A stretch of 64,000 bases of DNA. It comes from Larus michahellis (Eukaryota > Chordata > Aves > Charadriiformes > Laridae). Position numbers and translations under genes: made by a program. The stretch lies in contig NC_133903.1 in NCBI RefSeq assembly GCF_964199755.1, positions 58,286,739 through 58,350,738 on the forward strand, written 5' to 3'. Under the pieces are notes generated by a model that ran no database searches, was not told the origin of the DNA, and saw nothing but the letters and a program-made list of their open reading frames with translations. Positions within the stretch are counted from its first letter, which is position 1. Each line of letters begins with the position of its first letter. Below, piece after piece: positions 38,521 through 62,600 of this stretch.

Positions 38521-38524
38521 GGTG

Positions 38525-40455: not shown

Positions 40456-41450
40456 GTGAAGTTAATCGCTCTGCCCGCAACAACTGCATATTGCCTTGTC
40501 TGTCCCCATATGGTGTCGCGTCTTGCCTTGTATTGCCCCGTCATCATCTTGATTGCCATCTGATCCATTGTGTCAAGTAGTGCACTGCATTGTGAATTTT
40601 TTAACTGTCTGTTCTTTATTTGGCTACATATTGCCTTGCGCTGGACTGTATTGTGTCACATACTGCACTGTATTGCCCTGTAATTGTCTTGACTGCCATC
40701 TGAGACTTTTTGAGATTGTACGGCAGCGTAGTGTGGGTTTTCTGACTGGCTGTTCTTTATTTGACTGGGTATTGCCTTGGACTGCCCTGCACGGTGTTCC
40801 GTTTTGCATTGACATTGTCTTGACTGACACGTGGGATTTGCCATTGTACCGCAGTGTGTTTTGGGTATTGTAATTTACTGGTCTTTATTTGACTGTGTAT
40901 TGCCTTGTACTGACCTGTATAATGTTATGTCTTGCACTGTATTGCCCTGTCCTTGTCTTGACTGACATCTGAGACTGTCTGGCATTGTAGTGTACCGTAT
41001 TGTGGGTCTTGTAATTGGCTGTCGCTTACTTGTCTGCGTATTGGGTTGTACTGCCCTGTATACCGTAACGTGTGGCATTGTATCGCCCTGTCATTGTCGT
41101 AACGGTCGCTTTGTAGATCGTCATAAGACTGCACTCTGTTGTGAATTTTTTTATCAGTTGTTCTTTGTTTAGCTGCATATTGCCTTGTACTGCCCAGTAT
41201 TGTGCTAGCCTTCCGTTGTGTCGCTCTGTCACTGTCTTGAATGACATCTGATGTTTTCTAACATTTGATGGCAATGTATTTTCAATTTTTCCATTGGCTG
41301 TTCTTTATTTGAGTGTGTAGTGCCGTGCACCTCTCTGTATAATGTTATTTCTTTGCACTGTATTGCCCTGTCGTTGTCCTGATTTACTTTAGAGTGTCTG
41401 GGATTGTATTGTACTGAATTGTGAGTTTCTTAATTTTTGTTTCTAAATTG
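40456..41450. repeat. ~140-bp satellite, segment 7
   Basis: About seven monomers leading into the block A copy that holds the pyrimidine array. Confidence 0.83.
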
Positions 41451-41470
41451 GAGCGCTGTGGTGGTGTGAT
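41451..41470 (+). repeat. Block A copy 5, left edge
   Basis: GCGCTGTGGTGGTGTGAT is the same lead-in seen before the short pyrimidine tracts at 415-432, 38515-38528 and 39738-39750. It shows that the array starts inside a block A copy. Confidence 0.65.
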
Positions 41471-41716
41471 CCCTCCTTTTTTTTTTCTCTCCCCACCCCC
41501 CAGCCCCCTTTTTTTTTTCCTCTCCTTCCCTGCCGCTGCCCCCTTTTTTTTTTTCCCCTCTCTTCCCTGCCGCTGCCCTCCGTGTTTTTCTCCTCTGCCC
41601 TTCTGCCCCCCTCTTATTTTCCTTTTTCTTCCCACAGCTGCCCCCTTTTTTCTCTTCTGCCCTTCTACCCCTGCCAGACGCCCCCTTTTTTTCTCTTCTG
41701 CCCTTCTACCCCCGCC

Positions 41717-41975
41717 GGCCGCCCCCCTTTTATTTTCCCCTCTTCTGCCCCACGGCCGCCCCCCTTTTATTTTCCCCTCTTCTGCCCCACGGCCGCCCCC
41801 CTTTTATTTTCCCCTCTTCTGCCCCACGGCCGCCCCCCTTTTATTTTCCCCTCTTCTGCCCCACGGCCGCCCCCCTTTTATTTTCCCCTCTTTTGCCCCA
41901 CGGCCGCCCCCCTTTTATTTTCCCCTCTTCTGCCCCACGGCCGCCCCCCTTTTATTTTCCCCTCTTCTGCCCCCC
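41717..41975 (+). repeat. Sub-array of 37-bp units, 7 copies
   Basis: GGCCGCCCCCCTTTTATTTT then CCCCTCTTCTGCCCCAC, repeated with starts at 41717, 41754, 41791 and so on. Confidence 0.9.
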
Positions 41976-42099
41976 TTTTTTACTTCTCTTCCCACAGCTG
42001 CCCCCTTTTTTCCTCTTCCGCCCCCCTTTTTTACTTCTCTTCCCACAGCTGCCCCCTTTTTTCCTCTTCCGCCCCCCTTTTTTACTTCTCTTCCCACAG

Positions 42100-42960
42100 C
42101 TGCCCCCTTTTTTTCTCTTCTGCCCCGTGTCGCCCCCTTTTTTTCTCTTCTGCCCCGTGTCGCCCCCTTTTTTTCTCTTCTGCCCCGTGTCGCCCCCTTT
42201 TTTTCCTCTTCTGCCCCGTGTCGCCCCCTTTTTTACTTCTCTTCCCACAGGTGCCCCCTTTTTTCCTCTTCTGCCCCGTGTCGCCCCCTTTTTACTTCTC
42301 TTCCCACAGCTGCCCCCTTTTTTTCCTCTTCTGCCCCGTGTCGCCCCCTTTTTTTCCTCTTCTGCCCCGTGTCGCCCCCTTTTTTTCCTCTTCTGCCCCG
42401 TGTCGCCCCCTTTTTTTCCTCTTCTGCCCCGTGTCGCCCCCTTTTTTTCCTCTTCTGCCCCGTGTCGCCCCCTTTTTTTCCTCTTCTGCCCCGTGTCGCC
42501 CCCTTTTTTTCTCTTCTGCCCCGTGTCGCCCCCTTTTTTTCCTCTTCTGCCCCGTGTCGCCCCCTTTTTTACTTCTCTTCCCACAGGTGCCCCCTTTTTT
42601 CCTCTTCTGCCCCGTGTCGCCCCCTTTTTTACTTCTCTTCCCACAGCTGCCCCCTTTTTTTCCTCTTCTGCCCCGTGTCGCCCCCTTTTTTTCCTCTTCT
42701 GCCCCGTGTCGCCCCCTTTTTTTCCTCTTCTGCCCCGTGTCGCCCCCTTTTTTTCCTCTTCTGCCCCGTGTCGCCCCCTTTTTTTCCTCTTCTGCCCCGT
42801 GTCGCCCCCTTTTTTTCCTCTTCTGCCCCGTGTCGCCCCCTTTTTTCCTTCCCTTCCCACAGCTGCCCCCTTTTTTTCTCTTCCCACAGCTGCCCCCTTT
42901 TTTCCTCTTCTGCCCCGTGTCGCCCCCTTTTTTCCTTCTCTTCCCACAGCTGCCCCCTTT
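42100..42960 (+). repeat. Sub-array of ~31-bp GTGTCG units mixed with CCCACAG units
   Basis: GCCCCCTTTTTTTCCTC then TTCTGCCCCGTGTC, about two dozen copies. Units with TTCTCTTCCCACAGCTGC are inserted at intervals, which gives a two-type higher-order pattern. Confidence 0.88.
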
Positions 42961-42961
42961 T

Positions 42962-44222
42962 TTTCCTCTCCCGCCCCGTGTCGCCCCCTTTTTTCCTCCT
43001 CTCCCGCCCCGTGTCGCCCCCTTTTTTCCTCCTCTCCCGCCCCGTGTCGCCCCCTTTTTTCCTCCTCTCCCGCCCCGTGTCGCCCCCTTTTTTCCTCCTC
43101 TCCCGCCCCGTGTCGCCCCCTTTTTTCCTCCTCTCCCGCCCCGTGTCGCCCCCTTTTTTCCTCCTCTCCCGCCCCGTGTCGCCCCCTTTTTTCCTCCTCT
43201 CCCGCCCCGTGTCGCCCCCTTTTTTCCTCCTCTCCCGCCCCGTGTCGCCCCCTTTTTTCCTCCTCTCCCGCCCCGTGTCGCCCCCTTTTTTCCTCCTCTC
43301 CCGCCCCGTGTCGCCCCCTTTTTTCCTCCTCTCCCGCCCCGTGTCGCCCCCTTTTTTCCTCCTCTCCCGCCCCGTGTCGCCCCCTTTTTTCCTCCTCTCC
43401 CGCCCCGTGTCGCCCCCTTTTTTCCTCCTCTCCCGCCCCGTGTCGCCCCCTTTTTTCCTCCTCTCCCGCCCCGTGTCGCCCCCTTTTTTCCTCCTCTCCC
43501 GCCCCGTGTCGCCCCCTTTTTTCCTCCTCTCCCGCCCCGTGTCGCCCCCTTTTTTCCTCCTCTCCCGCCCCGTGTCGCCCCCTTTTTTCCTCCTCTCCCG
43601 CCCCGTGTCGCCCCCTTTTTTCCTCCTCTCCCGCCCCGTGTCGCCCCCTTTTTTCCTCCTCTCCCGCCCCGTGTCGCCCCCTTTTTTCCTCCTCTCCCGC
43701 CCCGTGTCGCCCCCTTTTTTCCTCCTCTCCCGCCCCGTGTCGCCCCCTTTTTTCCTCCTCTCCCGCCCCGTGTCGCCCCCTTTTTTCCTCCTCTCCCGCC
43801 CCGTGTCGCCCCCTTTTTTCCTCCTCTCCCGCCCCGTGTCGCCCCCTTTTTTCCTCCTCTCCCGCCCCGTGTCGCCCCCTTTTTTCCTCCTCTCCCGCCC
43901 CGTGTCGCCCCCTTTTTTCCTCCTCTCCCGCCCCGTGTCGCCCCCTTTTTTCCTCCTCTCCCGCCCCGTGTCGCCCCCTTTTTTCCTCCTCTCCTGCCCC
44001 GTGTCGCCCCCTTTTTTCCTCCTCTCCCGCCCCGTGTCGCCCCCTTTTTTCCTCCTCTCCCGCCCCGTGTCGCCCCCTTTTTTCCTCCTCTCCCGCCCCG
44101 TGTCGCCCCCTTTTTTCCTCCTCTCCCGCCCCGTGTCGCCCCCTTTTTTCCTCCTCTCCCGCCCCGTGTCGCCCCCTTTTTTCCTCCTCTCCCGCCCCGT
44201 GTCGCCCCCTTTTTCTCCTTCT
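42962..44222 (+). repeat. Highly uniform sub-array of 33-bp units, 38 copies
   Basis: CCCGCCCCGTGTCGCCCCC then TTTTTTCCTCCTCT. The phrase starts at 42970 and for the last time at 44191, exactly 37 periods of 33. Only isolated changes are visible (one CTGCCCC near 43995). A multiple of three keeps every frame constant, which produces an 11-residue pseudo-protein repeat. Confidence 0.95.
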
Positions 44223-44285
44223 TTTTGCCTCCCTTCTCCCTTTTTTTCTTATCTTACCCCGCTGCCCCCTTTTTCTTGTCTTCCC

Positions 44286-44520
44286 ACTGCCGCCCCCCTT
44301 TTTTCCTCTTACCCCCACTGCCGCCCCCCTTTTTTCCTCTTACCCCCACTGCCGCCCCCCTTTTTTCCTCTTACCCCCACTGCCGCCCCCCTTTTTTCCT
44401 CTTACCCCCACTGCCGCCCCCCTTTTTTCCTCTTACCCCCACTGCCGCCCCCCTTTTTTCCTCTTACCCCCACTGCCGCCCCCCTTTTTTCCTCTTACCC
44501 CCACTGCCGCCCCCCTTTTG
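44286..44520 (+). repeat. Sub-array of 31-bp units, 8 copies
   Basis: ACTGCCGCCCCCCTTTTTT then CCTCTTACCCCC, starts at 44286 and every 31 bp to 44503. Confidence 0.92.
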
Positions 44521-45719
44521 TTTCTTCTTCCTTCCCACAGCCGCCCCCCTTTTGTTTCTTCTTCCTTCCCACAGCAGCCCCCTTTTTTCTCTTCCCTTTC
44601 CATAGCCGCCCGTCTTTTTTTTCCTCCTCTTCCTCCCCAACCCCCTTTTTCTACTCTTCCCACAGCCGCCCGTCTCTTTTTCTACTCTTCCCACAGCCGC
44701 CCGTCTCTTTTTCTACTCTTCCCACAGCCGCCCCTTTCACCCCCTTTTTTCCTCTTCCTTCCAAGCCCCCTCTTTTTTCTTCTCTCCCCACAGCCGCCCC
44801 TTTCACCCCCTTTTTTCTTTTCTTGCCCCTCTGCCCCCCTTTTTTCTTCTCTCCCCACAGCCGCCCCCCTTTTTTCCTCTTCCGCTCCTCTGCCCCCCCT
44901 TTTTTCTTCTCTCCCCACAGCCGCCCCCCTTTTTTCCTCTTCCGCTCCTCTGCCCCCCCTTTTTTCTTCTCTTCCCACCGCCGCCCCCCTTTTTTCCTCT
45001 TCCGCTCCTCTGCCCCCCCTTTTTTCCTCTCCTCTTCTGCACAGCCGCCCCCTTTTCCTCTCCTCTTCTGCACAGCCGCCCCCTTTTCCTCTCTTACCCC
45101 CTCTACCCCACACTATTTTCCTCTTCCACCTTTCTGTCCCCCATTTGTTTCTTCTTCCTTCCCACAGCCCCCCCTCTTTTCTACTATTCCTACAGCTGCC
45201 TGTCATTTTTTTCCTCCTCTTCCTCCCCAGCCCCCTTTTTTCTACTCTTCCCACTGCTGCCCCCTTCTTTTCCCATTCCGCCCCTTTTCCCCTCCCTTTT
45301 TTCCGTCTTCCGCCCCTTCCCCCGTTCTTTCCTCTTCCACCCCTTTTTCCCCCCTTTTTTCTTCTTTTTCCACAGCCACTCCCTTTTTTCCTCTTCCGCC
45401 ACTGCCCCATTTTTTTTTCCTCTTCCGCCCCTGCCCCATTTTTTTTTCCTCTTCCGCCCCCCTGACCCGTTTTTTCCCTTTCCACCCCCATGCCCCTCTC
45501 TTTCTTTCTTTTCTCACAGCCACCCCCTTTTTTTCCTCTCTCCCCACAGCGGCCCCCTTTTTTCCTCTTCCGCCCCTTCCCCCCCCTTTTTTCCTCATCC
45601 GCCCCTCTGTCACCCATTTGTTTCTTCTACTCTTCCCACAGCCCCCCCCTTTTTCTACTCTTTTCTCACAGCTGCCCATTGTTTTTTTTTGTTCCTCTTC
45701 CTCCTCAGCCCCCTCTTTT

Positions 45720-45985
45720 TCTTCTCTTCCGCCCCCTTTGCCGCCCCTTTTTTCTTCTCTTCCGCCCCCTTTGCCGCCCCTTTTTTCTTCTCTTCCGCCC
45801 CCTTTGCCGCCCCTTTTTTCTTCTCTTCCGCCCCCTTTGCCGCCCCTTTTTTTTCCTCTTCCGCCCCCTTTGCCGCCCCTTTTTTTTCCTCTTCCGCCCC
45901 CTTTGCCGCCCCTTTTTTTTCCTCTTCCGCCCCCTTTGCCGCCCCTTTTTTTCCTCTTCCGCCCCCTTTGCTGCCCCTTTTTTTT
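45720..45985 (+). repeat. Sub-array of 33-bp units, about 8 copies
   Basis: CTCTTCCGCCCCCTTTGCCG then CCCCTTTTTT. The first copies have TTCTTCTC and later ones TTTTCCTC, so a variant took over midway. Confidence 0.88.
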
Positions 45986-46069
45986 CCTCTACTCTTCCCA
46001 CAGCCCCTCCTTTTTCTACTCTTCTCACAGCTGCCCATCGTTTTTTTTTCCTCTCTCCCCACAGCCGCC

Positions 46070-46435
46070 CGCTTTTCTCCTCTCCCGCCCCTTTTCCCCC
46101 CTTTTTTTCTCCTCTCCCGCCCCTTTTCCCCCCTTTTTTTTCTCCTCTCCCGCCCCCTTCCCCCCCTTTTTTCCTCCTCTCCCGCCCCCTTCCCCCCCTT
46201 TTTTCCTCCTCTCCCGCCCCCTTTCCCCCCCTTTTTTCTCCTCTCCCGCCCCCTTTCCCCCCCTTTTTTCTCCTCTCCCGCCCCCTTTCCCCCCCTTTTT
46301 TCTCCTCTCCCGCCCCCTTTCCCCCCCTTTTTTCCTCCTCTCCCGCCCCCTTTCCCCCCCTTTTTTTCCTCCTCTCCCGCCCCCTTCCCCCCCTTCTTTT
46401 CCTCCTCTCCCGCCCCTTTTCCCCCCCCTTTTTTT
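46070..46435 (+). repeat. Sub-array of ~33-bp units, about 11 copies
   Basis: CTCCTCTCCCGCCCCCTTTC then CCCCCCTTTTTT with small length changes in the C and T runs. Confidence 0.85.
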
Positions 46436-46532
46436 CCTCTTCCTTCCCAGCCCCTTTTTCTTCTCTTACCCCCTCTACTCCACTTTATTTTCTTCTTCCG
46501 CCCTTCTGTCCCCCTGTTGTTTCTTCTTCCTT

Positions 46533-46810
46533 CCCTCAGCCGCCCCCTTTTTTCCCTCCCCTTCCCTCAGCCGCCCCCTTTTTTCCCTCCCCTTCCCTCA
46601 GCCGCCCCCTTTTTTCCCTCCCCTTCCCTCAGCCGCCCCCTTTTTTCCCTCCCCTTCCCTCAGCCGCCCCCTTTTTTCCCTCCCCTTCCCTCAGCCGCCC
46701 CCTTTTTTCCCTCCCCTTCCCTCAGCCGCCCCCTTTTTTCCCTCCCCTTCCCTCAGCCGCCCCCTTTTTTCCCTCCCCTTCCCTCAGCCGCCCCCTTTTT
46801 TCCCTACTTT
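46533..46810 (+). repeat. Sub-array of 31-bp units, 9 copies
   Basis: CCTCAGCCGCCCCCTTTTTT then CCCTCCCCTTC, starts near 46536 and every 31 bp to about 46784. It is almost invariant. Confidence 0.92.
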
Positions 46811-48129
46811 TTTTTCTTCTCTCCTGCCCTTCTGTTCCCCTTTTCTTTCTCTTCCCCTGCGCCCCGTTCCCCTACTTTTTTCTTTTCTTCCCGTCCAGTT
46901 CTGTTTTCTTCTTCTCTTCTGAACGGCCGCCCCTATTTTTCCCTCTTCCTTCCCAGCCCCGTTTTTTTCTCTTATGCCCTCTACCCCCCTTTTTGTTTCT
47001 TCCTCATTCCCACAGCCCCCCCATTTTTTCTCTCCCCTTCCTACAGCCGCCTCCCTCTTTTCTACTCTTCCCACCGCCGCCCGTCATTTTTTTTCCTTCT
47101 CTTCCTCAGCCCCCTTTTTTCCTCCTCTTCTGCCCCGTTTCCCCCGCTTTTTTTCTTCCCTCCCCAAGGCTGCCCCCTTTCTTAACTCTTCCACCCCTGT
47201 GCCCGCCTTTTTTTTTCTTCTCTCCCCACAGCCACCCCCTTTTTTCCTCTTCTGCCCCTTCCCCCTTTTTTTTTCTACTCTTCCCACGGCCGCCCTGTTT
47301 TTTTTTTCTACTCTTCCTCCCTAGTCCCCTTCTTTCCCTCTACCGGCCCTTTCCCCCCCTTTTTCTTCTCACTCTAAGGCCGCCCCTTTTTTTCTTCCTT
47401 GCCGCCCCCCTGCCCGCTTTTATCTTCCTTTCCCCACATCCGCCCCCTTTTTTTTCTTCCCTTCCCCACAGCTGCCCCCTTTTTTTCCTCTTCTGCCCCT
47501 TCCCCCCTTCTTTGTTCTCTCCACCCTCTGTCCCCCTTTTTTTTTCTCTTCCCTTCCCCATGGCCGCACCCCTGCTCCCCTTTCTTTTCTCCACATTCGC
47601 CCCTATTTTTTTCCTCTCTTCCGAACGGCCCCCCCTATTTTTTTCCCCTTCTTTCCCAGCCCCCTTTTTTCTTCTCTTCTCTTTGCTGCCCCCCTTTTTT
47701 CTCTTACTCCCTCTACCCCACTTTATTTTCCTCTTCCGCTTCTCTGTCCCCCTTTTTCTTCTTCCTTCCCAGCCACTCCCTTTTTTCTCTTCTTCCTCAC
47801 GGCTGCGCCCCTTTTTTACTCTTACCCCCTCTAGCCTACTTTTTTCCTCTTCTGCCCTTCTGCCCCCCTTTTTTTTCCTCTTCCCTTCCCCAAAGCTGCC
47901 CCCCTTTTTTTCCCCTTCCCCAAAGCTGCCCCCCTTTTTTTTCCTCTTTCCCCGGCAACCCCCTTTTTTCCTTATTTTCACCCCCGTGCCCCCTTTTTTA
48001 TTCTTCCCATCCAGCTTCTGTTTTTTTCTTTTCTTCCCGTCCAGCCCCCTCTTTTTTCTTTTATTCCCCCACCACCCCCTTTCTTCTTCTCTTCCTCACA
48101 GCCGCCCCCTTTTTTCTTCCCTTCCCCAC

Positions 48130-48605
48130 AGCTGACCCCGTTTCCCCTCCCTTTTATCCCTCTTCCGCCCCGTTTCCCCTCCCTTTTATCCCTCTTCCGC
48201 CCCGTTTCCCCTCCCTTTTATCCCTCTTCCGCCCCGTTTCCCCTCCCTTTTATCCCTCTTCCGCCCCGTTTCCCCTCCCTTTTATCCCTCTTCCGCCCCG
48301 TTTCCCCTCCCTTTTATCCCTCTTCCGCCCCGTTTCCCCTCCCTTTTATCCCTCTTCCGCCCCGTTTCCCCTCCCTTTTATCCCTCTTCCGCCCCGTTTC
48401 CCCTCCCTTTTATCCCTCTTCCGCCCCGTTTCCCCTCCCTTTTATCCCTCTTCCGCCCCGTTTCCCCTCCCTTTTATCCCTCTTCCGCCCCGTTTCCCCT
48501 CCCTTTTATCCCTCTTCCGCCCCGTTTCCCCTCCCTTTTATCCCTCTTCCGCCCCGTTTCCCCTCCCTTTTATCCCTCTTCCGCCCCGTTTCCCCTCCCT
48601 TTTTT
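48130..48605 (+). repeat. Sub-array of 32-bp units, 15 copies
   Basis: CCGCCCCGTTTCCCCTCCC then TTTTATCCCTCTT, starts at 48165 and every 32 bp to 48581, with one partial leading copy. Confidence 0.93.
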
Positions 48606-49879
48606 CTTATGTCCCCAAGGCTGCCCCCTTTTTTACCTCTTCTGCCCCCCTGGCCCCCTCTTTCTTCCTTTCCCCACAGCCGCCCCCCTTTTTTTTCCTC
48701 TTCTGCCCCTTTCCCCCCCTTTTTTTTCTTCTCTTCCCACAGCCGCCTGTTATTTTTTTCCTCCTCTTCTGCCCCTTTTCAGCCCTCTTTTTTTCTTCGC
48801 TTCCGCCCCTTTCCCCCCCTTTTTTCCCTATTCGGCCCCTTTTCAGCCCCCTTTCCTTCTCTCCCCAAGGCCGCCCCCTTTTTTTTCCTCTTCTACCCCC
48901 CTGCCCCTTTTTTCTTCCTTTCTGCCCCCCTTTTTCTTCCTTTCCCCACATCCACCCCCTCTTTTTCTTCTCTCCCCACAGCTGCCCCCTTTTTTCCTCT
49001 TCTGCCCCTTTTCCCCCCTTTTTTGTCCTCTCTGTCCCCCCTTTTTTCCTCTCCGCCCCCTCTCCCCCTTTTTTCTCTTCCCCTGCCGCCCCCCTTTTTT
49101 CCTTCTTTTTGCCCCCTGCTCCCCTTCTTCTTTTCTTCCCATCCAGCCCCCTTTTTTCTTTTCTTACCCTGCTGCCCCCTTTTCTTCTCTTCCGAACGGC
49201 CCCCCCTATTTTTTCCCCTTCCTTCTCAGCCCCCTTTTTTCTTCTCTTGTCATTACTGCCCCCCTTTTTTTCTCTTACCTCCTCTACCCCACTTTATTTT
49301 CCTCTTCTGCCCCTCTGTCCCCCTTTTTCTTTCTTCTTCCTTCCCAGCCGCCCCCTTTTTTCTTTTCTCTTCCTCACGGCCGTGCCCCTTTTTTTCCTCT
49401 TACCCCCTCTAGCCCACTTTTTTCCTCTTCTGCCCTTCTGTCTTCCTTTTTTTTCTCTGCCTGCCCCAAAGCCGCCCCCCTTTTTTTCTCTTCCCCCGCT
49501 GCCCCCTCTTTTCCTTGTTTTTGCCTCCCTGCTCCCCTCTTTTTCTTTTCTTCCTGTCCAGCCCCCTCTTTTTTTCTTTTCTTCCCTTCCCCACAGCCGA
49601 CCCCCTTTTACTTTTCTTCCCTTCCCCACAGCCGACCCCCTTTTACTTTTCTTCCCATCCAGCCCCCTTTTTTCTTCCCTTCCTCACAGCTGCCCCTATA
49701 TTTTTCCTTTTCCTTCGCAGCCCCTTTTCTTCTCTTCCCACTGCCCCCCTTTTTTCCTCTTCTGCCCTTCTGTCCCCCTTTTGTTTTTTCCTCTTTCCCA
49801 CAGCCCCCCCGTTTTTCCTCCTCCCTCCCCACAGCCGCCCCCTTTTTTCTACTCTTCCTACAGCTGCCTGTCATTTTTT

Positions 49880-50262
49880 CCTCCTCTCCCGCCCCTTTTC
49901 CCCCCTTTTTTTCGTCCTCTCCCGCCCCTTTTCCCCCCTTTTTTTCGTCCTCTCCCGCCCCTTTTCCCCCCTTTTTTTCGTCCTCTCCCGCCCCTTTTCC
50001 CCCCTTTTTTTCGTCCTCTCCCGCCCCTTTTCCCCCCTTTTTTTCGTCCTCTCCCGCCCCTTTTCCCCCCTTTTTTTCGTCCTCTCCCGCCCCTTTTCCC
50101 CCCTTTTTTTCGTCCTCTCCCGCCCCTTTTCCCCCCTTTTTTTGTCCTCTCCCGCCCCTTTTCTCCCCTTTTTTTCGTCTTCTCCCGCCCCTTTTCTCCC
50201 CTTTTTTTCGTCTTCTCCCGCCCCTTTTCTCCCCTTTTTTTCGTCCTCTCCCGCCCCTTTTT
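49880..50262 (+). repeat. Sub-array of 33-bp units, about 11-12 copies
   Basis: CTCTCCCGCCCCTTTTCCCC then CCTTTTTTTCGTC. The last copies change to TTCTCCCC and CGTCTT. Confidence 0.9.
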
Positions 50263-51289
50263 ACTTGTCTTCCAAACGGCCGCCCCCCTTATTTTCTCTT
50301 CCGCCCTTTTGTCCCCCTTTTGTTTCTCTCCCCTTCCCCTCAGCCGCCCCCTTATTTTCTTCTTTTGTCCCTCTGCCCCCCTTTTTTTCCTACTCTTTCT
50401 TCCCAGCCTTCTTTCCCTCTTCCGCCCCTTCCCCCCGCCTTTTTCTTCTCTCCCCAAGGTCGCCCCCTTTTTTTCCCTCTGCCGCCCCCTGCCCCTTTTT
50501 TCTTCCTTTCCGTCCCGCTGCCCCCCTGTTTCTTCCTGTCCCCACAGCCACCCCTTTTTTTTTCTTCTCTCCCCACAGCCCCCACCTTTTTTCTATTCTT
50601 CCCATAGCAGCCCATCGTATTTTTTTTCCTCCTCTTCCGCCCCTCTTCGCCCCCTTTTTTCTACTCTTCCCACAGCCGCCCGTTGTTTTTTTCCTCCTCT
50701 TCCTCCCCAGCCCCCCGTTGTTTTTTTCCGCCCCTTCCCCCCCATTTTCCCTCTTCCGCCCCTTCCCCCCCTTTTTTCTCTCCCTAAGGCCACCCCCTTT
50801 TTTCCCCTCTTCTGCCCCCCTTTTTCTTCCTGTCCCCACAGCTGCCCCCTTTTTTTTCTTCTCTCCCCACAGCCGCCCCCTTTTTTCCTCTTCTACCCTT
50901 TTCCCCCGTTTTTGTCCTCTCCGCCCTCTGTCCCTCTTTCTTATCCTCTTCCGTCCCTTCCCCCCCTTTTTTCTCCTCTTCCCACAGCTGCCCGTTATTT
51001 TTTTTCCTCCTCTTCTGCCCCCAGCCCCCTTTTTTCTTCTCTTCCGCCCCTTTCCTTCCCGTTTTTCTTCTCTCCCCAGGGCCAACCCCTTTTTCTCCTC
51101 TTCCACCTCGCTGCCCCCCTTTTTTTCATCTCTCCCCACAGCCGACCCCTTTTTCCTCTTCCGCCCCTTTTCCCCTCTTTTTTTCTCTGTCCCTCTGCCC
51201 CCCTTTTTTTTCTTTCCACCGCCCCCCTTTTTTCCTTCTTTTTGCCCCCCTGCTCCCCTTTTTTTTTCTTTTCTACCCATCCAGCCCCC

Positions 51290-51425
51290 TTTTTTCTCCT
51301 CTTCCTCACGGCCGCCCCCTTTTTTCTCCTCTTCCTCACGGCCGCCCCCTTTTTTCTCCTCTTCCTCACGGCCGCCCCCTTTTTTCTCCTCTTCCTCACG
51401 GCCGCCCCCTTTTTTCTCCTCTTTC
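51290..51425 (+). repeat. Sub-array of 30-bp units, about 5 copies
   Basis: CCTCACGGCCGCCCCCTTTT then TTCTCCTCTT, identical in each copy. Confidence 0.88.
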
Positions 51426-51974
51426 TTCTCAGCCCCTTTTTTCTTCTCTTCCCACTGCTGCCCCCCTTATTTCTCTTACCCCCTCTACCCCCCTATTTTT
51501 TCCTCTTCTGCCCTTCTGTCCCCCTTGTGTTTCTTCTTCCTTCCCAGATGCCCCCTTTTTTTTTCTTTACTCTTCCTACAGCCGCCCATCTTTTTTCTAC
51601 TCTTCCTACAGCCGCCCGTGTTTTTTTTTCCTCCTCTTCCTCCCCAACCCAGTTTTCTCTTCCTTTCCCCACAGCCGCCCATCTTTTTTCTACTCTTCCC
51701 ACAGCCGCCCGTCTTTTTGTCTCCTCTTCCTCCACAACCCACTCTTTTTTTCTCTTCCCTTCCCCACAGCTGCCCGTCTCTTCTTTCCTCCTCTTCCTCC
51801 CCAACCCCCCTTTTTTCCTCTTTCGCCCCTCTGCCCCCCTTTTTTCCTCTTTCGCCCCTCTGCCCCCCTTTTTTCTTCTCTCCCCACAGCCGCCCCCTTT
51901 TTTCCTATTCTGCCCCTTTGCCCCCCTTTTTTTCCTCTTCTGCCCGTTCCCCCCCTCTTTTCTTCTCTCCCCAA

Positions 51975-52190
51975 GGCCGCCCCCTTTTTTTTCCTTGCCG
52001 CCCCCCTGCCCCCCTTTTTTTCCTTGCCGCCCCCCTGCCCCCCTTTTTTTCCTTGCCGCCCCCCTGCCCCCCTTTTTTTTCCTTGCCGCCCCCCTGCCCC
52101 CCTTTTTTTTCCTTGCCGCCCCCCTGCCCCCCTTTTTTTTCCTTGCCGCCCCCCTGCCCCCCTTTTTTTTCCTTGCCGCCCCCTTTTTCC
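51975..52190 (+). repeat. Sub-array of ~29-30 bp units, 7 copies
   Basis: CCTTGCCGCCCCCCTGCCCC then CCTTTTTTTT. Copies differ only in the T-run length (7 or 8). Confidence 0.88.
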
Positions 52191-54889
52191 CTCTTCCGCC
52201 CATCTGCCCCCCTTTTTTCCCTCTTCCGCCCCTTTCCCCCCTCTTTTTTCTACTCTTCCTTCAGCCCCCCTTTTTTCTACTCTTCCTTCAGCCCCCCTTT
52301 TTTCTACTCTTCCCACAGCTGCCCGTTGTTTTTTTCCTTCTCTTATTCCCCAGCCCCCTTTTTTTCTCTTCCCACTGCTGCCCCTCCTTTTTCCTCCGCC
52401 GCCCCTTCCCCCCCTCCTTTTTCCTCCGCCGCCCCTTCCCCCCCTCCTTTTTCCTCCGCCGCCCCCGTTCTTGCTTCCCCTCCCCCTCCTGTCTTTTTCT
52501 CTTCCGCCCCTCCCCCTCCTTTCCTTCTTCTCGCCCCCCTGCTCCCCTTTCTCTTTCTTCCTGTCCAGCCCCCCCTTTTTTCTTCCCTTCCCCACAGCTG
52601 ACCCTGTTTTTTCCCCTTCTGCCCCTTCCCCCCCCGTTTTTTCCCCTTCTGCCTCTTTTTTCTCTTCCCCCGCTGCCTCCTTCTTTCCTTCTTTTTGCCC
52701 CCTGCTCCCCTTTTTTTTCTGTTCTTACTGCGCCGACCCCTTTTTTTGCTTCCCTTCCCCACAGCCGACCCCTTTTTTTGCTTCCGCCCCTCTCCCTTCT
52801 TTCCTTCTTTTCACCCCCCTGCTCCCCTTTTATTTTTCTTCCCGTCCAGCCCTCTCTTTTTTCTTCCCTTCCCAACAGTCGACCCCTTTTTTCCTCTTCC
52901 GCCCCTTTCTCCCCTCCCTTTTCTTCTCTTCCTCACAGCCGCCCCCTTTTTTCTTCTCTTCCTCACAGCTGCCCCTATATTATTCCTCTTTCTTCCCAGC
53001 CCCCTTTTTCTTCTCTTCCCACTGCCACCCCCCTTTTTTTCTCTTACCCCCTCTACCCCCCTGTTTTTCCTCTTCCGCCCTTCTGTCCCCCTTTTGTTTC
53101 TTCCTCCTTCCCACAGCCCCCCCATTTTATCTCTTCCCTTCCCACAGCCCCCCCCTTTTTTCTACTCTTCCCATAGCCACCCCCTTTTTTTCTACTCTGC
53201 CTCCCCAGTCCCCTTTTTTCCCTCTTCCGCCCCTTTTCCCCCCGCCTCCCTTTTTATTCTCTCCCCAAGGCCGCCCCCCGCCTCCCTTTTTATTCTCTCT
53301 GCTCTCTGTCCCCCTCTTTTCCTTCTTCCCGTCCCGGCCCCTCTTTTTCTTTTCTTCCCGTCCCCACAGCCGACCCCTTTTCCCCGCTGTTTTTTTCCTC
53401 TTCCACCCCTTCCCCACCTTTTTTCTTCCCACCGCTGCCCCCTTTATTCCTTCTTTTTGCCCCCCTGCTCCCCTTTTACTTTTCTTCCCATCCAGCCCCC
53501 TTTTCTTCTCTTCCTCACAGCCACCCCTATATTTTTCCTCTTCCTTCGCAGCCCCCTTTTCCTTCTATTCCCACTGCCGCCCCCCTTTTTTCCTCTTCTG
53601 CCCTTCTGTCCCCCTTTTGTTTCTTCCTCATTCCCACAGCCCCCCAGTTTTTTCTCTCCCCTCCCCACAGCCGCCCCCCTGTTTTCTCTTCCGCCTCTTT
53701 CCCCTCCTTTTTTCCTCTTCCGCCCCTGCCCCTTTTTTCTTCCTTTCCGCCCCCCCGCCCCCATTTTTCTTCCTTTCCCCACATCTGCCCCCTTTTTTTT
53801 CTTCTCTCCCCATAGCCACCACCTTTTTTCCTCTCCTGCCCCTTTTCTCCCCTTTTTTATTCTCTTCCCACCACCCCCCCTTTTTTTCTCTTCCCCTGCC
53901 GCTCCCCTTCTTTGCTTCTTTTTACCACCCTACTCCCCTTTTTCTTCTTTTCCCCCGCCACCCACTTTTCTTCTTCTCGTCCCCATGGCTGCCCCCTTTT
54001 CTTCTCCTTGTCCTCACGGCTGCCCCTATTTTTTTCCTCTTTCTTCCCAGCCCCTTTTTACTTGTCTTCCAAACGGCCGCCCCCCTTTTTCTCTTCCGCC
54101 CGTTTGTCCCCCTCTTGTTTCTCTCCCCTTCCCACAGCCCCCCCCCCGGTGTTTCTCTCCCCTTCCCACAGCCCCCCCCCGGTGTTTCTCTCCCCTTCCC
54201 ACAGCCCCCCCCCGGTGTTCCTCTCCCCTTCCCACAGCCCCCCCCCCCCGGTGTTTTTTTTTCTCTTCCTGTTCAGCCCACTTTTTTCTTCTTCCGCCCC
54301 TTTCCCCGCCCTTTTTTCTTCTTTCCCCAAGGCCGCCCACTTTTTTCTTCCCTTCCCTTTCCCCCAGCCGCCCCCTTTTTTCCTCTTCTGCCCCTTCCCC
54401 CCATTTTTCGTGTTTTGCCCCTCTGCCCCCTTTTTTTCTACTCTTCCCACAGCCGCATGTTGTTTTTTTCTCCTTCCTCCCCAGCCTTCTTTCCCTCTTC
54501 CGCCCTTCCCCCCCCTTTTTCTTCTCTCCCCAAGGCCGCCCCCTTTTTTCCTCTTCTACCCCTCTGCCCCTTTTTTCTTCCTTTCCCCACAGCCACCCCC
54601 TTTTTTTCTTCTCTCCCCACAGCCACCCCCCTTTTTTCCTCTTCTACAGTTTCCCTCCCTTTTTTCCTCTTTCGCCCCTCTGCCCCCCTGTTTTTTCTTC
54701 TCTTCCCACAGCCGCCCCCTTTTTTCTTCTCTTCCGCCTCTCTGCCCCCCTCTTCTCTTCTCTTCCCCACAGCCGCCCCCTTTTCTTTCTTCTCTAGCCC
54801 CGCCAGCCCCCTTTTTTCCTTCTTTCCCCCCCTTTGCTCCCATTTTTCTTTTCCTCATCCTCCCCGACCCCCTTTTTCTTCTTCTCTTT

Positions 54890-55175
54890 CCCTGCCAGCC
54901 CCTTTTTTGCTTCTTCCCGCCCCCCTCCTCCCCTTTTTTGCTTCTTCCCGCCCCCCTCCTCCCCTTTTTTGCTTCTTCCCGCCCCCCTCCTCCCCTTTTT
55001 TGCTTCTTCCCGCCCCCCTCCTCCCCTTTTTTGCTTCTTCCCGCCCCCCTCCTCCCCTTTTTTGCTTCTTCCCGCCCCCCTCCTCCCCTTTTTTGCTTCT
55101 TCCCGCCCCCCTCCTCCCCTTTTTTGCTTCTTCCCGCCCCCCTCCTCCCCTTTTTTGCTTCTTCCCGCCCCTCTC
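54890..55175 (+). repeat. Sub-array of 31-bp units, about 9 copies
   Basis: GCTTCTTCCCGCCCCCCTCC then TCCCCTTTTTT. Confidence 0.9.
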
Positions 55176-55419
55176 CCTCCTTTCTTTTTCTCTTCTGCCC
55201 TCCTGCTCCCCTTTTTTTTTCTTCCCGTCCAGCCGACCCCGTTTTTTCCTTTTCTGCCCCTTTTCCCTTTTCCCCCCCGTTTTTTTCCCCCACCGCCGCC
55301 CCTTTTTTCTCTTCCCCCGCCGCCCCCCTTCTTTCCTTCTTTTTGTCCCCCACTCCCCTTTTATTCTGTTTTTACCGCGCCGACCCCTTTTTTCACTTCC
55401 CTTTCCCACAGCCGACCCC

Positions 55420-55560
55420 TTTTTTTCTCTTCCGCCCCTTCCCCCCCCGTCTTTTTCTCTTCCGCCCCTTCCCCCCCCGTCTTTTTCTCTTCCGCCCCTT
55501 CCCCCCCCGTCTTTTTCTCTTCCGCCCCTTCCCCCCCCGTCTTTTTCTCTTCTGCCCCTC
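55420..55560 (+). repeat. Sub-array of 30-bp units, 4-5 copies
   Basis: CTTTTTCTCTTCCGCCCCTT then CCCCCCCCGT. Confidence 0.87.
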
Positions 55561-58500
55561 TACCTTCTTTCCTTCTTTTCGCCCCCCTGCTCCCCTTTTT
55601 TTTTCTTCCTGTCCAGCCCCTCTTTTTTCTTTTCTTCCCCCACCACTCCCTTTTCTTCTTCCCTTCCCCACAGTCGACCCCTTTTTTCCTCTTCCGCCCC
55701 TTTCTCCCCTCCCTTTTCTTCTCTTCCTCACAGCTGCCCCTATATTTTTCCTCTTCCTTCCCAGCCCCCTTTTTCTTCTCTTCCCACTGCCGCCCCCCTT
55801 TTTTCTCTTACCCCCTCTACCCCCCTTTTTTTCCTCTTCCGCCCTTCTGTCCCCCTTTTGTTTCTTCCTCCTTCCCACAGCCCCCCCTTTTTTCTACTCT
55901 GCCTCCCCAGTCCCCTTTTTTCCCTCTTCCGCCCCTTTTCCCCCCCTGCCTTTTTCTTCCCTCCTCAAGGCCGCCCCCTGCCTCCCTTTTTCTTCCCTTC
56001 CCCACGGCCACCCCCTTTTTTTATTCTCTCCCCACAGCCGCCCCCTTTTTATTCTCTCCCCACAGCCGCCCCCTTTTTATTCTCTCCCCACAGCCGCCCC
56101 CTTTTTTCCTCTTCCGCCCCTGCCCCTTTTTTCTTCCTTTCTGCCCCCCCGTCCCCCTTTTTCTTCTCTCCCCATAGCCACCACCTTTTTTCCTCTCCTG
56201 CCCCTTTTCTCCCCTTTTTTTTCCTCTCCGCCCCCTCCCCTTTTTTATTCTCTTCCCACCACCCCCCCTTTTTTTCTCTTCCCCTGCCGCTCCCCTTCTT
56301 TGCTTCTTTTTACCACCCTATTCCCCTTTTCCTTTCTTCCCCCGCCACCCACTTTTCTTCTTCTCGTCCCCACGGCTGCCCCCTTTTCTTCTTCTTGTCC
56401 TCACGGCTGCCCCTATTTTTTTCCTCTTTCTTCCCAGCCCCTTTTTACTTGTCTTCCAAACGGCCGCCCCCCTTTATTTTCTCTTCCGCCCTTTTGTCCC
56501 TCTTTTGTTTCTTCCTCCTTCCCACAGACCCCCGGTTTTTCTCTCCCCTTCCCACAGCCCCCCCTTTTTTCTACTCTTCCCATAGCTGCCCGTTGTTTTT
56601 TTTCCTCTTCCTGTCCAGCCCACTTTTTTCTTCTCTTCCCACAGCTGCACCCTTTTTTCCTCTTCCGCCCCTTTCCCCCCCGCCCTTTTTTCCTCTTCCG
56701 CCCCTTTCCCCCCCGCCCTTTTTTCTTCTTCCGCCCCTTTCCCCCCCGCCCTTTTTTATTCTTTCCCCAAGGCCGCCCCCTTTTTTTACCTCTTCTGCCC
56801 CTCAGCCGCCCCCTTTTTTTACCTCTTCTGCCCCTCAGCCGCCCCCTTTTTTTACCTCTTCTGCCCCTCAGCCGCCCCCTTTTTTCCTCTTCTGCTGCTT
56901 TCCCCCTTTTTTTCTACTCTTCCCACAGCTGCACGTCGTTTTTTTCCTCCTCTTCCTCCCCAGCCTTCTTTCCCTCTTCTGCCCTTTCCCCCCTCTTTTT
57001 CTTCTCTCCCCAAGGCCGCCCCCTTTTTTTCCTCTTCTACCCCTCTGCCCCTTTTTTCTTCCTTTCAGCCACCCCCTTTTTTTCTTCTCTCCCCACAGCC
57101 GCCCCCTTTTTTCCTCTTCTGCCCCTCTGCCCCCCTTTTTTCCTCTTCTGCCCCTCTGCCCCCCTTTTTTCCTCTTCTGCCCCTCTGCCCCCCTTTTTTC
57201 TCTTCTCTTCCTCACGGCTGTGCCCCTTTTTTTCCTCTTCTGCCCTTCTGTCCCCCTTGTGTTTCTTCTTCCTTCCCAGATGCCCCCTTCTTTTTTTTCT
57301 CTACTCTTCCTACAGCTGCCCATCTTTTTTCTACTCTTCCCACAGCCGCCCATCTTTTTTTCCTCCTCTTCCTCCCCAACCCACTTTTTTTTCTTCCTTT
57401 CCCCACAGCCGCCCGTCTTTTTTTTCCTCCTCTTCCTCCCCAACCCCCTTTTTCTACTCTTCCCACAGCCGCCCGTCTTTTTGTCTCCTCTTCCTCCACA
57501 ACCCACTCTTTTTCTCTTCCCTTCCCCACAGCCACCCGTCTTTTTTTTCCTCCTCTTCCTCCACAACCCCCTTTCTTCTTCTGTTCTGCTCCTTTCCCCC
57601 CCTTTTTTCCTCTTCCGCCCCTCTGCCCCCCTTTTTCTTCCTTTCCCCACAGCCGCCCCCTTTTTTTTCTTCTCTCCCCACAGCTACCCCCTTTTTTCCT
57701 CTTCTGCCCCTTTCCCCCTTTTTTCCCTCTTCTGCCCCTCTGCCCCCTTTTTTTTCTACTCTTCCTACAGCCCCCCTTTTTTCTACTCTCCCACAGCTGC
57801 CCTTTGTTTTTTTCCTTCTCTTACTCCCCAGCCCCCTTTTTCTTCTCTTCCTACTGCTGCCCCCTCTTTTTCCTCCTCCGCCCCTTTTCCCCCCACCCTT
57901 TTTTCCTCCTCCGCCCCTCTTCCCCCCCTACCCTTTTTTCCTCTTCTGCCCCTTTCACCCCCTGTTTTTCTTCTCTCCCCACAGCTGCTTCCTCATTTTT
58001 TTACTCTTTTGCTCCTCTGCCCTCCTTTTTTCTTCTCTTCCCACAGCAGCCCCTTTTTTCTTACCCCCGCTGCCCGTCTTTTTTTTCCTCCTCTTCTTCC
58101 CCAGCCCCCCTTTTTTCATCTTCCCACTGCCGCCCACTTTTTTATCCTCTCCACCCCTCTGCCCCCCTTTTTTCTCTTCCCTTCCCTATAGCTGCCCCCT
58201 TTTTTCTTCTCTTCCCACTGCCACCCCCTTTTGTCTTCTTAACCTCTCTGCCCCGCTTTTATTTTCCTGTTCAGCCTGTCTGCCCCCCTTTTTTCCTCTT
58301 TTGCCCTTCTGCCCCCCTTTTTTTCTTCTCTTCCCCCGCCAGCTGCCCCCCTTTTTTCTTCTCTTCCCCCGTCAGCTGCCCCCCTTTTTTCCTCTTTCCC
58401 CCCTGCTCCTTTTTCTTGTCTTCCCGCCGTCCAGCCCCCCTTCTTTTTTCTTGTCTTCCCGCCGTCCAGCCCCCCTTCTTTTTTCTTCTTTTCTTCCCAC

Positions 58501-59437
58501 ACAGTCCGCTTTGTTCCTCTTCCCCCTTCTGCCCCCCTTCTTGTCTTCCCTCCTCTCTGCCCCTCTGTGTTTTCATCCTTCCCCCCATTCCCCTTTTTTC
58601 TTGTCTTCCCCCCCGCTGCTTCCTTTTTTTCTTTTCCTCCCCAGCCTCCCTTTTTCTTCTTCTCTTTCCCGTCCCATCCACTTTTTTCCTCTTCCCTCCT
58701 CCTGCTCCCCTTTTTATTGTCTTCCCTGCTCTATGCCCCCTTTTTTCTCCTCCCCCTCTTCCCCTGTTTTTTCCTTCTCTTCCCCCCGCCGCCCCTTCTT
58801 TTTCTTCTCTTCCGCCTCTCTGCCCCCTTTTTTTCTTCTCTTCCCCACAGCCACCCCCTTTTCGTTCTTCTCTAGCCCCGCCAGCCCCCTTTTTTCCTGC
58901 TTTCCCCCCCTTTGCTCCCGTTTTTCTTCTTTTCCTCGTCCTCCCCAACCCCCCTTTTTCTTCTTCTCTTTCCCCGCCAGCCCCCTTTTTGCTTCTTTCC
59001 CTCCCCTGCTCCCCTTTTTCTTCTTTTTGCCCCCCTGCTCCCCTTTTTCTTTTCTTCCTGCCCAGCCCCTTTTTTCTTCTCCTCTCCCACTGCCCCCTTT
59101 TTTTTTTCTTCTCTGCCCACTGCCGCCCCCTTGGTTTTTTTCTCTTATTCCCTCTGCCCCTCTTTTTTTTTCTTATTCACTTTGCCCCCTTTTTTTTCCT
59201 TCCGCCCCTCTGCCCCGTTTTTTTCCTCTTTCACCTCTCTTCTCCCCATTTTTTCTCTTCTCTTCTCCACAGCCGCCCCCTTTTATTTTTTCTTCTCTTC
59301 CGCTGTCCCCTTTTTTTTTCCTCTCTTCCACGGCCTGCCCCCTTTTTTTCTCTTCTTCCCCCCGTCCCCCTCCTCCCCCCGCCACCCTGTTTCTCTTTTT
59401 TCTCTCCCTTTTGCTTTTACTTCTCTCTTTCTTCCCC

Positions 59438-59651
59438 AGGTTGCTGTTTGAGCTATAACCATCAGTGGAAGCTGTTATGAGTGGTAGTTCTACTTTGGGG
59501 GATGGCTCGCAATACAGGCCCGAGTGTGTCTCCAGTGGGGACCTACATATTTTCTTCCAATGCTAATGTGACTATAAGTTAATTAGCTTACTCTATCAAT
59601 AATGGCCAGCCCAAGAGCCCTTTTCCGCTCCCCTGCATGGCAGTGGCCTGT
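59438..59651 (+). repeat. Block A copy 5, right part, truncated
   Basis: The exon-like part resumes directly after CTTCCCCAG (AG 59438-59439): GTTGCTGTTTGAGC, GATGGCTCGCAATAC, AGTGGGGACCTA and AATTAGCTTACTC. It breaks off at GCAGTGGCCTGT and joins satellite. The GTAAGTGAC donor and the second acceptor are missing from this copy. Confidence 0.78.
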
Positions 59652-62600
59652 ATTGCTGTGTCATTCTCTTCACTGGCATTTTAGACATTCTGGGATTGTC
59701 CTCATATGTATTTGGGGAATTTTATCGGTTGCTCTTCTTGAGCATGCATTGCGTCGTTACCGCCTTGTGCTGTGTTGTCTTGCATTGCATTGCCCTGTTG
59801 TCGTTCTGACTGCTATCTGATATATTTTGTCATTGCAGCGCCCTGTATTGTGTTACATTTTGTCTTGTACTGCTCTGTCATCCTCCTGGCTGCTGTCCTG
59901 CATATATTGGCATTGTCCTGCACTGTATTACGGGTTATTTAATGGGTTGTTTATTTTTGACTGAGTATTGTACTGTACCACCCTGTATTGTGTTATGTCT
60001 CACATTGTATTGCCCTGTCATAATCTGGACTGTCATCTCATTTATTTTTGTGTTGTCCCGCCACGGCGTTGTGGGTTTTTTTTATCGGTTGGTATTTATT
60101 TGATTGCATACAGCATTAAATGGCACTGTGTAATGTCGTGTCTTCAATTCTGCCACCCTGTAACTGTCTCGATTGCCACCCGAGGTTGTTTGGAATCGTA
60201 CCGTTCTTTATTGTGGGGTTTCGATCGCTCGGTCCTTACTTTATTCTGTATTGCATTGTACCTCCCTGTATACTGTCACGTCTTGCATTTTATTACCCTG
60301 TCATTGTCTGCACTGTCATTTGAGACTCTCTGGGATTTTACGGCACCGCATTGTGGGTGGATTTGATCCGTTGCTCTATATTTAACTTTTTATTGCTTTG
60401 TCCCGCCCTTTATTTTCTGATATGTTGGATTGTATTTCCCTGTGACTGTCCCGAGAGCCATCCGATACATTGTAGCATCGACAGGCACCATATCGCGAGC
60501 TTCTTAATCAGTTGTACTTTGTGTGCCCGCGTACCGGCTTGGACTGGCCTGTATGGTGTTCTGTCTCAAATGTTACTCCTCTGTAACTGCCTTTCCTGCC
60601 ACCTGAGAATGTGTTTGATTGTACTGCGCTGTATTGTGGTTTTTCTTTAATTAGTGCTGTATTGCATTGTGTATTCCCTTCTACTGTTCAGTATTGTGTT
60701 ACGTATTCCTTTGTATAAGCGTGTCACGGTTTTGACTGTCTTTTGTGACATTCTGTCATAGTACTGCACTGTAATGTCAGTTTTTTGTTTGGTCATTCCT
60801 TATTTGATTGCATATTGGCCTTGAACTGCCCCGTATAATGTTATGTCTTGCATTGCGTTGCTCCGTCATTGTCTTAACTGTCACTGTAGACATCGTGTCC
60901 TAGGACTGGAATGTATTGTGGGTATTTTAACAGGCTGTTAGTTATTTGACTGTGTTACGGTGTTATGCCTGCTATTATGTCTAGCTTTGTATTGCCTGCT
61001 CATTGTCTGTCACTTCAGACTGTCTGGGATTATATTGAACTGTATTGTTAATTTTTTCATCGGCTGTTTTGTATGTGACTTGGTATTACCCTGTACTGCC
61101 CTGTATACTGTTAGGTGTTGCATTGTATTGCCCCGTCAGCGTCTCGATTGTCATTTTAGAGATTGTGTCATAGCATTGCGCTGTATTGCGGTTATTTTAA
61201 TCGGCCATTCTTGATTTGACTGCATATTGACTTGTCCTGCCTGCTATACCGTTACGTCTTGCACTGTATTGCTATGGTATTGTTTTTACTGTCATCTTAG
61301 ACATTGTGTCATAGGACTGCACCATATTGTGAATTTTTTCATCGGCTGTTTTTTTTTTTAAACGACCGCGTATTGCTGTGTACTGCTCCTGTATAGCCTT
61401 ACGTCTTGCATTGTATCGCACTGTCATCGCGTGGACTGTCAATTCAGACCATCTACGATTAACAAAATTCACAATGTAGTGCAGTACGTTGACTGTTAGT
61501 TATTTGACTGCGTATTGCCTTGTAGCGCCCTGTATACCGTGATATCTTGCATTCTGTCATTTTGTCATTGTCTTGACTGACATTTTAGACATGGTGTCAT
61601 AGCGCTGCATTCTATTGTGGGTATCGGCTGTTACTCATTTGGCCACATATTGCCTCGTGCTGCCCTGTATTGTGGTACGTATGGCATCGTGTTGCTCTGT
61701 GATTGTCTTGACTGTCTATTTAGACAATCCGTCATAGGACTGCACCATATTGTTAGTATTTTATGTGCTTGGTTTTTTGACCGCGTATTGCCTTGTACCA
61801 CTGTATAGCGCGATATCTGTATTGCAGTGCCTCATCATTGTATCGATTGTCATTTTAGACATTGTGTCATAGGACTGTGTTGCATTGTTGGTATTTTAAT
61901 GGGTTGCTTTTCATTAAGCTGCGTATTGCCTTGTACTGCCCTGTGTCATGTCATGTCTTGTATCATATGGCCCTATCATTGTATCGATTGTCATTTCAGA
62001 CCATCTGCAACTGTAGTGCTCTATACAGTTAAATTTTGAATCGGCTGTTATTTATTTGACTGTTTATTGCCTTATGTTGCTCTGTATAATGCGATGTCTT
62101 GCATTGTAGTATTGTCCTGTCATTGTGTCGATTTGTCATTTTAGATGTTGTGTCATAGGACTCAATTGTATTGTGGGTATTGTAATTGACTGTTATTTAT
62201 TTGAACGTGTCTTGTCTTGTACTTCCCTGTATTGTGTTATGAGTTGTCTTTCCTTGCTCTGTCCTTGTTTTGACGGTCATTCTTGACGTTTTGTCATAGG
62301 ACTGAAATGTATTGCGAATTTTTTAGCGTTTTTTTTTATTTGACCGGGTATTGCCTTGCAGCGCCCCGTATACTGTCACGTCTTGCATTGTAATTCTTTG
62401 TCATTGTCTTGGCTTATTTCAGACCGCCTGGGATTGTACTTCACAGTCTTGTCAATTTTCGAATCAGCTATTCTTTATTTGACCACGCATTGGCTTGTAC
62501 CGCCCTGTATGCTGTAATGTCTTCTGTTGTATCGCCCTGTCATTTTCTTGACCGTCATTTCCGAGTTCCCGGGATCGTACCGGAGCGTATTGTCAATTTT

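Follow-up and report, generated by a model that had tools for sequence, protein, structure and literature searches.

Several described satellites trace back to transposable elements. According to the part of PMC7004042 available to us, satellites of Lathyrus sativus arose from tandem repeats inside Ogre retrotransposons with long terminal repeats (LTRs), and the accessible part of PMC4079207 presents the foldback transposon Tetris as a supplier of satellite building blocks in Drosophila virilis. With regard to chromosome ends, the abstract of PMC4301066 introduces PO41 as a transcribed subtelomeric repeat of chicken and quail with a 41-bp unit, and the consulted part of PMC6600276 describes human subtelomeric promoters of the telomere transcript (TERRA) as CpG islands in repeat tracts. 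Here, we study a C/T-rich tandem array of about 18 kb in a 64,000-nucleotide (nt) stretch of the gull Larus michahellis (NC_133903.1, positions 58,286,739 to 58,350,738; the window in the following). The array stands where related copies of what we read as an LTR carry a short C/T tract. We consider it likely that one such tract, in the U3 part of one LTR, expanded, was spread with a subtelomeric cassette by exchange between chromosome ends and is still growing locally.

The locus resembles the Lathyrus case, as far as the cited part of PMC7004042 goes, in that a repeat-prone stretch at one site of an LTR element gave rise to long arrays in favoured chromosome regions. Seed and place differ, i.e., the Ogre seed, a tandem array, belongs to the 3′ untranslated region and expanded mainly in primary constrictions, whereas the gull seed appears to be a plain C/T tract, lies within the LTR of an animal element and has its arrays at chromosome ends. 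Tetris is likewise a transposon source of a satellite but, as presented in PMC4079207, a DNA transposon and not an LTR. PO41 shares the short unit and the tandem arrangement in avian subtelomeres, which is a comparison by description and not by sequence; the abstract (PMC4301066) states no LTR origin, while the gull array lies within an LTR. The human TERRA promoter repeats (PMC6600276, in part) are comparable in place, not in sequence, to a ~380-bp repeat distal of the gull array. In the literature, judged mainly on titles and abstracts, we found no subtelomeric satellite from an LTR tract in birds, and the consulted parts of PMC9974502, PMC6792250 and PMC11745021 describe no such array. That satellites can derive from transposons is already known; what we call new is the plain C/T seed in an LTR, its one fixed position at many ends and its readable history.

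The array and the repeat that holds it

The main features of the locus are as follows (window positions):

41457–41470, + strand: 5′ end of the array-holding LTR copy, TGTGGTGGTGTGAT, from alignment with three solo and four window LTRs; this start is common to the contig ends C1L, C4R, C4L, C12L, C78, C79 and C9
41471–59439, + strand: C/T-rich tandem array of 17,970 nt replacing the short tract of the LTR, from composition, Tandem Repeats Finder (TRF) and its limits
59440–59643, + strand: ~200 nt of the same LTR past the array, then a break into the 140-bp satellite, from alignment and junction sequence
39734–40482, + strand: full LTR copy 4, short tract, TG...CA
39729–39733, + strand: ACTGC, left target-site duplication of copy 4
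40483–40487, + strand: ACTGC, right target-site duplication of copy 4
38515–39174, + strand: LTR copy 3, short tract, ~65 nt missing after the tract
35238–35895, + strand: LTR copy 2, short tract
421–1104, + strand: LTR copy 1, short tract, first bases decayed, ~65 nt missing after the tract
40488–41456, + strand: degenerate ~140-bp satellite ahead of the array
59644–63817, + strand: degenerate ~140-bp satellite past the array, towards the telomere, limits approximate
63818–64000, + strand: first part of the ~380-bp tandem repeat on the telomere side, continuing past the window (match to C12:58350556-58351057)

The pyrimidine fraction is 0.866–0.913 in the full kilobases within the array compared to 0.464–0.705 in those of the window wholly outside. 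TRF reports overlapping arrays all along it with periods mostly of ~22–65 nt or multiples, i.e., head-to-tail units over kilobases as in a satellite or minisatellite; taking the unit as 30 nt gives about 600 units (17,970/30). The open frames of up to 2,055 amino acids that run through the array we take to be an effect of composition. No Rfam match was found in the window at gathering thresholds, and three open reading frames from its 12–16 kb region gave no Pfam match.

The lead-in GCTGTGGTGGTGTGAT is found at 41455, and its sole other window match (at most 3 mismatches) is at 39732, ahead of a short tract. A GCTGCTGTTTGAGC-like follow-on starts at 59440, while AGTGGGGACCTA at 59534 recurs at 38590 and 39894, both 3′ of short tracts. 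Taken singly, these motifs are weak (their counts are reached by 3 to 6 of 100 shuffles); the aligned flank is strong, with 59456–59629 matching LTR copy 4 at E 7.6e-25. The preliminary description, which had placed the array at one defined position between the lead-in and follow-on of a repeated block A and had named flanks that do not align to this block as refuting, is borne out here: the flanks align, other copies carry a short tract at this position, and the array behaves like a single expanded tract. It had also named arrays of the same units without block A. For the 100 of 133 exact unit matches that were listed (from C1, C2 and the initial 11.9 Mb of C3), each lies in a block-A-flanked array, which settles this point for that part of the matches.

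Judged by its sequence features, block A is an LTR and no intron, such that its tract does not fit the label intronic-type given before. We searched the genome (1.405 Gb, 616 contigs) with the post-tract stretch, which gave 1,475 candidates, and scored the best 40. Each of these 40 dispersed copies holds a short C/T tract at the same site, about 12–14 nt inside the LTR 5′ end. Tract lengths are 12–46 nt with median 25.5 according to our second script, which set the inner tract edge too early in three copies, and 15–46 nt with median 27 according to the first. The tracts consist of loose C and T runs, and the ~30-nt repeat is not visible in them. The array occupies the position of a short tract inside the element, as is looked for in a transposon-derived satellite.

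Full-length sequence was fetched for 23 of the 40 copies, four of which have no recognised 3′ end. Among the 19 scorable for target-site duplications, the second script finds 12 perfect 5-bp duplications, 2 at 4/5 and 5 lower; the first one, with the 5′ end misplaced in a few copies, found 11 perfect and 2 at 4/5. Three distant copies on C38 (78–79% identity) start with TGTGGYRGTGTG and have GACA as their last letters; each contains a short C/T tract and is flanked by perfect duplications (ATGAG, CCAGG, AACTG). TG...CA termini are seen in 3/3 solo copies and in window copies 2 and 4, while copy 1 is decayed at its 5′ end and copy 3 ends in CAGA. The left flanks of the 40 LTRs comprise 33 distinct 8-nt sequences, as expected for copies scattered over unrelated sequence. 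From the 5-bp duplication rule, the element presumably belongs to an ERVL-like class. As a side observation, 29 of the best 40 copies lie on the single contig C38 (26.9 Mb) and the other 11 on C1, C2, C3, C9, C15, C19 and C41; this suggests that C38 is a repeat-rich chromosome, and our guess is the W chromosome.

All four full window copies align over their full length with the solo LTRs and hold tracts of about 15–65 nt. ACTGC follows directly after each of them and stands on both sides of copy 4, and the 140-bp satellite often reads TTTGACTGC at this site. Since ACTGC follows all four, they would go back to one insertion that was later amplified with the satellite.

A cassette at chromosome ends

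Between the window and the end of its contig there are 9,661 bases (C12, 58,360,399 bases; window at C12:58286739-58350738). We compared six contig ends, namely C12R (the window end), C4R, C1L, C4L, C2L and C12L. All show the order C/T array, 140-bp satellite, ~380-bp repeat and then TTAGGG arrays or N; proximal of the array, the 140-bp satellite with block A is found in all five ends that reach that far. TTAGGG arrays are present in 4/6 fetched ends (C12R, C4R, C4L, C12L), whereas C1L and C2L end in N. Read towards the end, TTAGGG stands on the same strand as the C/T sequence of the array. At its extreme end, the TTAGGG array of C12L degenerates into G-rich repeats. In 16 further contig starts, one of which is only N, the first 300 bases hold no CCCTAA repeats; these contigs are either not assembled to the telomere there or start with something else.

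For each flank, the best 40 candidates of a genome-wide search were scored, and the resulting counts are lower bounds. We find at least 37 copies of the 3′ flank (follow-on) at 94% identity or more and at least 40 of the 5′ flank (lead-in) at 93% or more. Pairing them by contig yields at least 35 arrays, where small contigs may be second haplotypes; the flank matches lie 4,580–38,784 bases apart (median 13,931). The 5′ flank stands alone on five contigs and the 3′ flank on two. The expansion is hence found in more than the one copy to which the preliminary description had assigned it. From the at least 37 follow-on copies, 30 can be placed, and for 29 of these the contig end to which they point is no more than 22 kb away. 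The copies are near-identical and oriented to the end as in a subtelomeric cassette. The exception (C3:11846145-11873113) is a complete cassette inside a contig, with 5′ flank, 21-kb array, 3′ flank and 380-bp repeat followed by an N run at 11.87 Mb, which may be a scaffold misjoin or an old chromosome fusion.

The ~380-bp tandem repeat between array and telomere occurs at 36 places on 31 contigs (36/36 candidates scored) and in 36/37 cassettes; in the remaining one, C35, the contig ends before it. In the window contig (63818–64000; C12:58350556-58352987) it is GC-rich, and an AATAAA and a hairpin were noted by eye. Just proximal of the 380-bp repeats, a stretch like an LTR 5′ end is found at C4L 28043, C12L 29622 and C2L 14603 (telomere-oriented positions). 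At C4L it reads TTTGACAC then TGTTGTGATGTGATGTCCCC, as if a second LTR had been broken at its tract.

Nine arrays were read, i.e., C12R, C1L, C4R, C4L, C12L, C78, C79 and C9 in full, and C2L over its last 10.3 kb. The 5′ start is identical in 8/8. At the 3′ end, 8/9 read CCCCAG/GTTGCTG (the slash marks the junction) and are nearly identical over the last ~45 nt ahead of it, while C12L differs in this stretch and reads CCCCGG/GTTTCTG. For the longest array (C21), three 1-kb samples are all array sequence.

Five of the six compared arrays are largely collinear and diverge like their distal flanks. With regard to C12R, shared unique 24-mers that fall in a single collinear chain amount to 8908/8928 for C4R, 3806/3924 for C1L, 1653/2022 for C4L and 1472/1763 for C2L. 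The substitution identities to C12R (array/distal flank, in %) are 99.62/99.58 for C4R, 98.90/98.91 for C1L, 97.95/98.26 for C4L and 97.52/97.85 for C2L, where the array values are taken between exact anchors. Given collinearity and flank-like identity, most of these arrays were probably carried along with their cassettes. Where it is visible, only the LTR copy nearest to the telomere has expanded: copy 4, 1.7 kb from the array, holds a short tract at 4/4 other ends where the fetched sequence extends to it, and so does copy 2 at C4L, the only other end reaching that far.

Within the arrays, we counted homogeneous sub-arrays (at least 93% match, at least 4 copies) and found 7 at C12R, 6 each at C1L, C4R and C4L, 12 at C12L and 8 at C2L. 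Their periods are 22–66 nt in 43/45 cases and 5 and 11 nt in the other two. Most are private to one end, while C12R and C4R have several in common and C1L, too, is rich in one 31-nt unit. Two examples from the window, both from TRF, are:

42102–44219, + strand: homogeneous sub-array of a 33-nt unit, 66.5 copies, 93% match, two unit types
48136–48603, + strand: homogeneous sub-array of a 32-nt unit, 14.6 copies, 100% match

Exact copies of the first unit type of 42102–44219 number 36 in the window, 10 at C4R and 0 at the four other ends; for the second type we find 17 in the window, 73 at C1L, 32 at C4R and 0 at three ends, and for the unit of 48136–48603 there are 14 in the window, 7 at C4R and 0 at four ends. 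Between the otherwise near-identical C12R and C4R, exact unit counts are thus 36/10, 17/32 and 14/7, and 8/2 for a further unit. Such differences fit local tandem duplication and loss, for which slippage or unequal exchange would be the molecular step, and it is likely that the arrays keep growing by local duplication. We also considered quadruplexes of the G strand and H-DNA mirror repeats as drivers of growth and rejected both, since the counts do not support them, C2L excepted: quadruplex-type C-runs are at or below mononucleotide shuffles in 5/6 arrays (e.g., 56 vs. 59.9 in C12R, 39 vs. 71.8 in C1L) and slightly above them in C2L (36 vs. 31.8), while mirror repeats number 0 in five arrays and 15 vs. 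0.7 in C2L, together with a TTCTC run. With this run (77 copies of TTCTC at array positions 7677–8070) and a stretch of 407 nt made up of pyrimidines alone, the C2L array is unlike the other arrays.

Apart from these features, the window holds a tandem duplication at 18848–31407 with a unit of ~3.9 kb and copies 77–81% identical. Two parts of the subtelomeric satellite domain enclose the stretch 7950–8035, which we take to be a CR1-like 3′ end.

Origin of the arrays and competing explanations

The history that we favour starts from an LTR that is dispersed in the genome with 5-bp target-site duplications. One insertion into the ~140-bp satellite would have been amplified with it, and the C/T tract would have expanded once, in the truncated copy nearest to the telomere, with copy 4 staying short. 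Ectopic recombination or break-induced replication may then have carried the array within the cassette to other ends, where slippage or unequal exchange would account for further growth, near-perfect sub-arrays being found at each of the six ends. A host function would not be needed, and we take the array for a subtelomeric satellite that is neutral or weakly selfish.

Some observations weigh against this history. We found no intermediate tract between 65 nt and 4.6 kb, such that the path of growth is not seen, and the short tract of copy 4 was checked at just four other ends. Proximal flanks diverge slightly more from C12R than the arrays do (98.74% for C4R, 97.14% for C1L, 98.07% for C4L), and the array identities, being taken between exact anchors, lean high; plain gapped BLAST gives 92.34% for C12R and C4R and no block over the 80% filter for 13/15 pairs. 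The two arrays of C12 share only 106/323 unique 24-mers in one chain and 454 alignable array columns at 95.4% (distal flank 93.6%), and the 3′ junction of C12L differs by two letters; C12L may thus be an older split or a second expansion. Furthermore, the 40 LTRs are not all independent insertions, as some duplicate one insertion, and expanded copies further down the list of 1,475 candidates would be missed.

Among the alternatives, a function at chromosome ends survives best. The array could, e.g., seed heterochromatin, act as a replication barrier or be part of a TERRA unit, and it is indeed placed at dozens of contig ends, points to the end in 29/30 placeable cases, runs with its C/T strand in TTAGGG direction, shows a CpG observed/expected ratio of 0.71–0.97 and is separated from the telomere by a CpG-bearing ~380-bp repeat in 36/37 cassettes. 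Nevertheless, we consider such a function improbable: spreading together with the cassette accounts for the presence of the array without selection, array length varies 8-fold, the neighbouring satellite has a similar CpG ratio (0.67–0.81), and C-runs and mirror repeats show no excess outside C2L. Its position and orientation, together with the ~380-bp repeat, give reason to consider a telomere-transcript unit. We hold a related extension to be only slightly less doubtful, namely that the LTR tract has become the standard pyrimidine-strand satellite of the ends, locked in a cassette with the CpG-bearing repeat, kept by recombination between ends and possibly of benefit to them.

Independent expansion at many ends, with the tract being unstable near telomeres, would explain why homogeneous sub-arrays largely differ between ends and why most of the C12L array is unalignable. 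It is harder to reconcile with the collinear order and flank-like divergence of C12R, C4R, C1L, C4L and C2L, with the nearly common last ~45 nt at 8/9 ends (C12L differing) and with copy 4, which lies 1.7 kb away and is unexpanded wherever another end reaches it. We thus give this explanation little credit compared to a single expansion.

The preliminary description read the CAG after the array as a splice acceptor, which leads to the explanation that the array is the overgrown polypyrimidine tract of an acceptor in a subtelomeric non-coding gene. Acceptor-like strings are in fact frequent, i.e., the array has 84 CCCACAG vs. 1.4 in dinucleotide shuffles and 115 Y10-N-CAG vs. 41, and GGTAAGT is retained in 7/7 full LTRs aligned. 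However, the repetition of units by itself multiplies any motif within a unit, which accounts for this excess, and C4L shows no enrichment of plain CAG (108 vs. 108.3). Branch-point-like YTRAY is below the shuffle mean in 6/6 arrays (5 vs. 11.5 expected in C12R). GTRAG donors number 0 in the six arrays and are absent within three more, where the two hits sit in the flank. A 3′ splice site would have a conserved AG, but in the 40 dispersed copies the tract is followed by AG in 12 (13 when one misplaced edge is corrected by eye), by CGG in 19 and by other letters in 9, and the C12L array ends in CCCCGG and not in CCCCAG. Given these counts, the CAG may be a CpG decay of CCCGG. We therefore rule out the acceptor, which the LTR identity of block A and the non-conserved AG leave very unlikely.

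An assembly artefact, i.e., a repeat inflated by the assembler, is hardly credible: array lengths do vary and, among the five contigs with the 5′ flank only, C67, C71 and C85 start no more than 2.6 kb away from it, which would fit a break inside the array, but the nine arrays read contain no N, share their start (8/8) and nearly their 3′ ends (8/9) and consist of non-identical units.

What the arrays record

The birth of satellites is an old question, because arrays usually erase their own seed. Here, the seed, unexpanded sister copies a few kilobases away, common junctions and about 35 daughter arrays with graded divergence can be read together. This makes events of growth and loss at chromosome ends countable per unit of substitution. 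It also opens the question why the LTR copy nearest to the telomere alone grew. With regard to mobile elements, the weak spot of such an element can reach many chromosome ends without renewed movement of the element itself.

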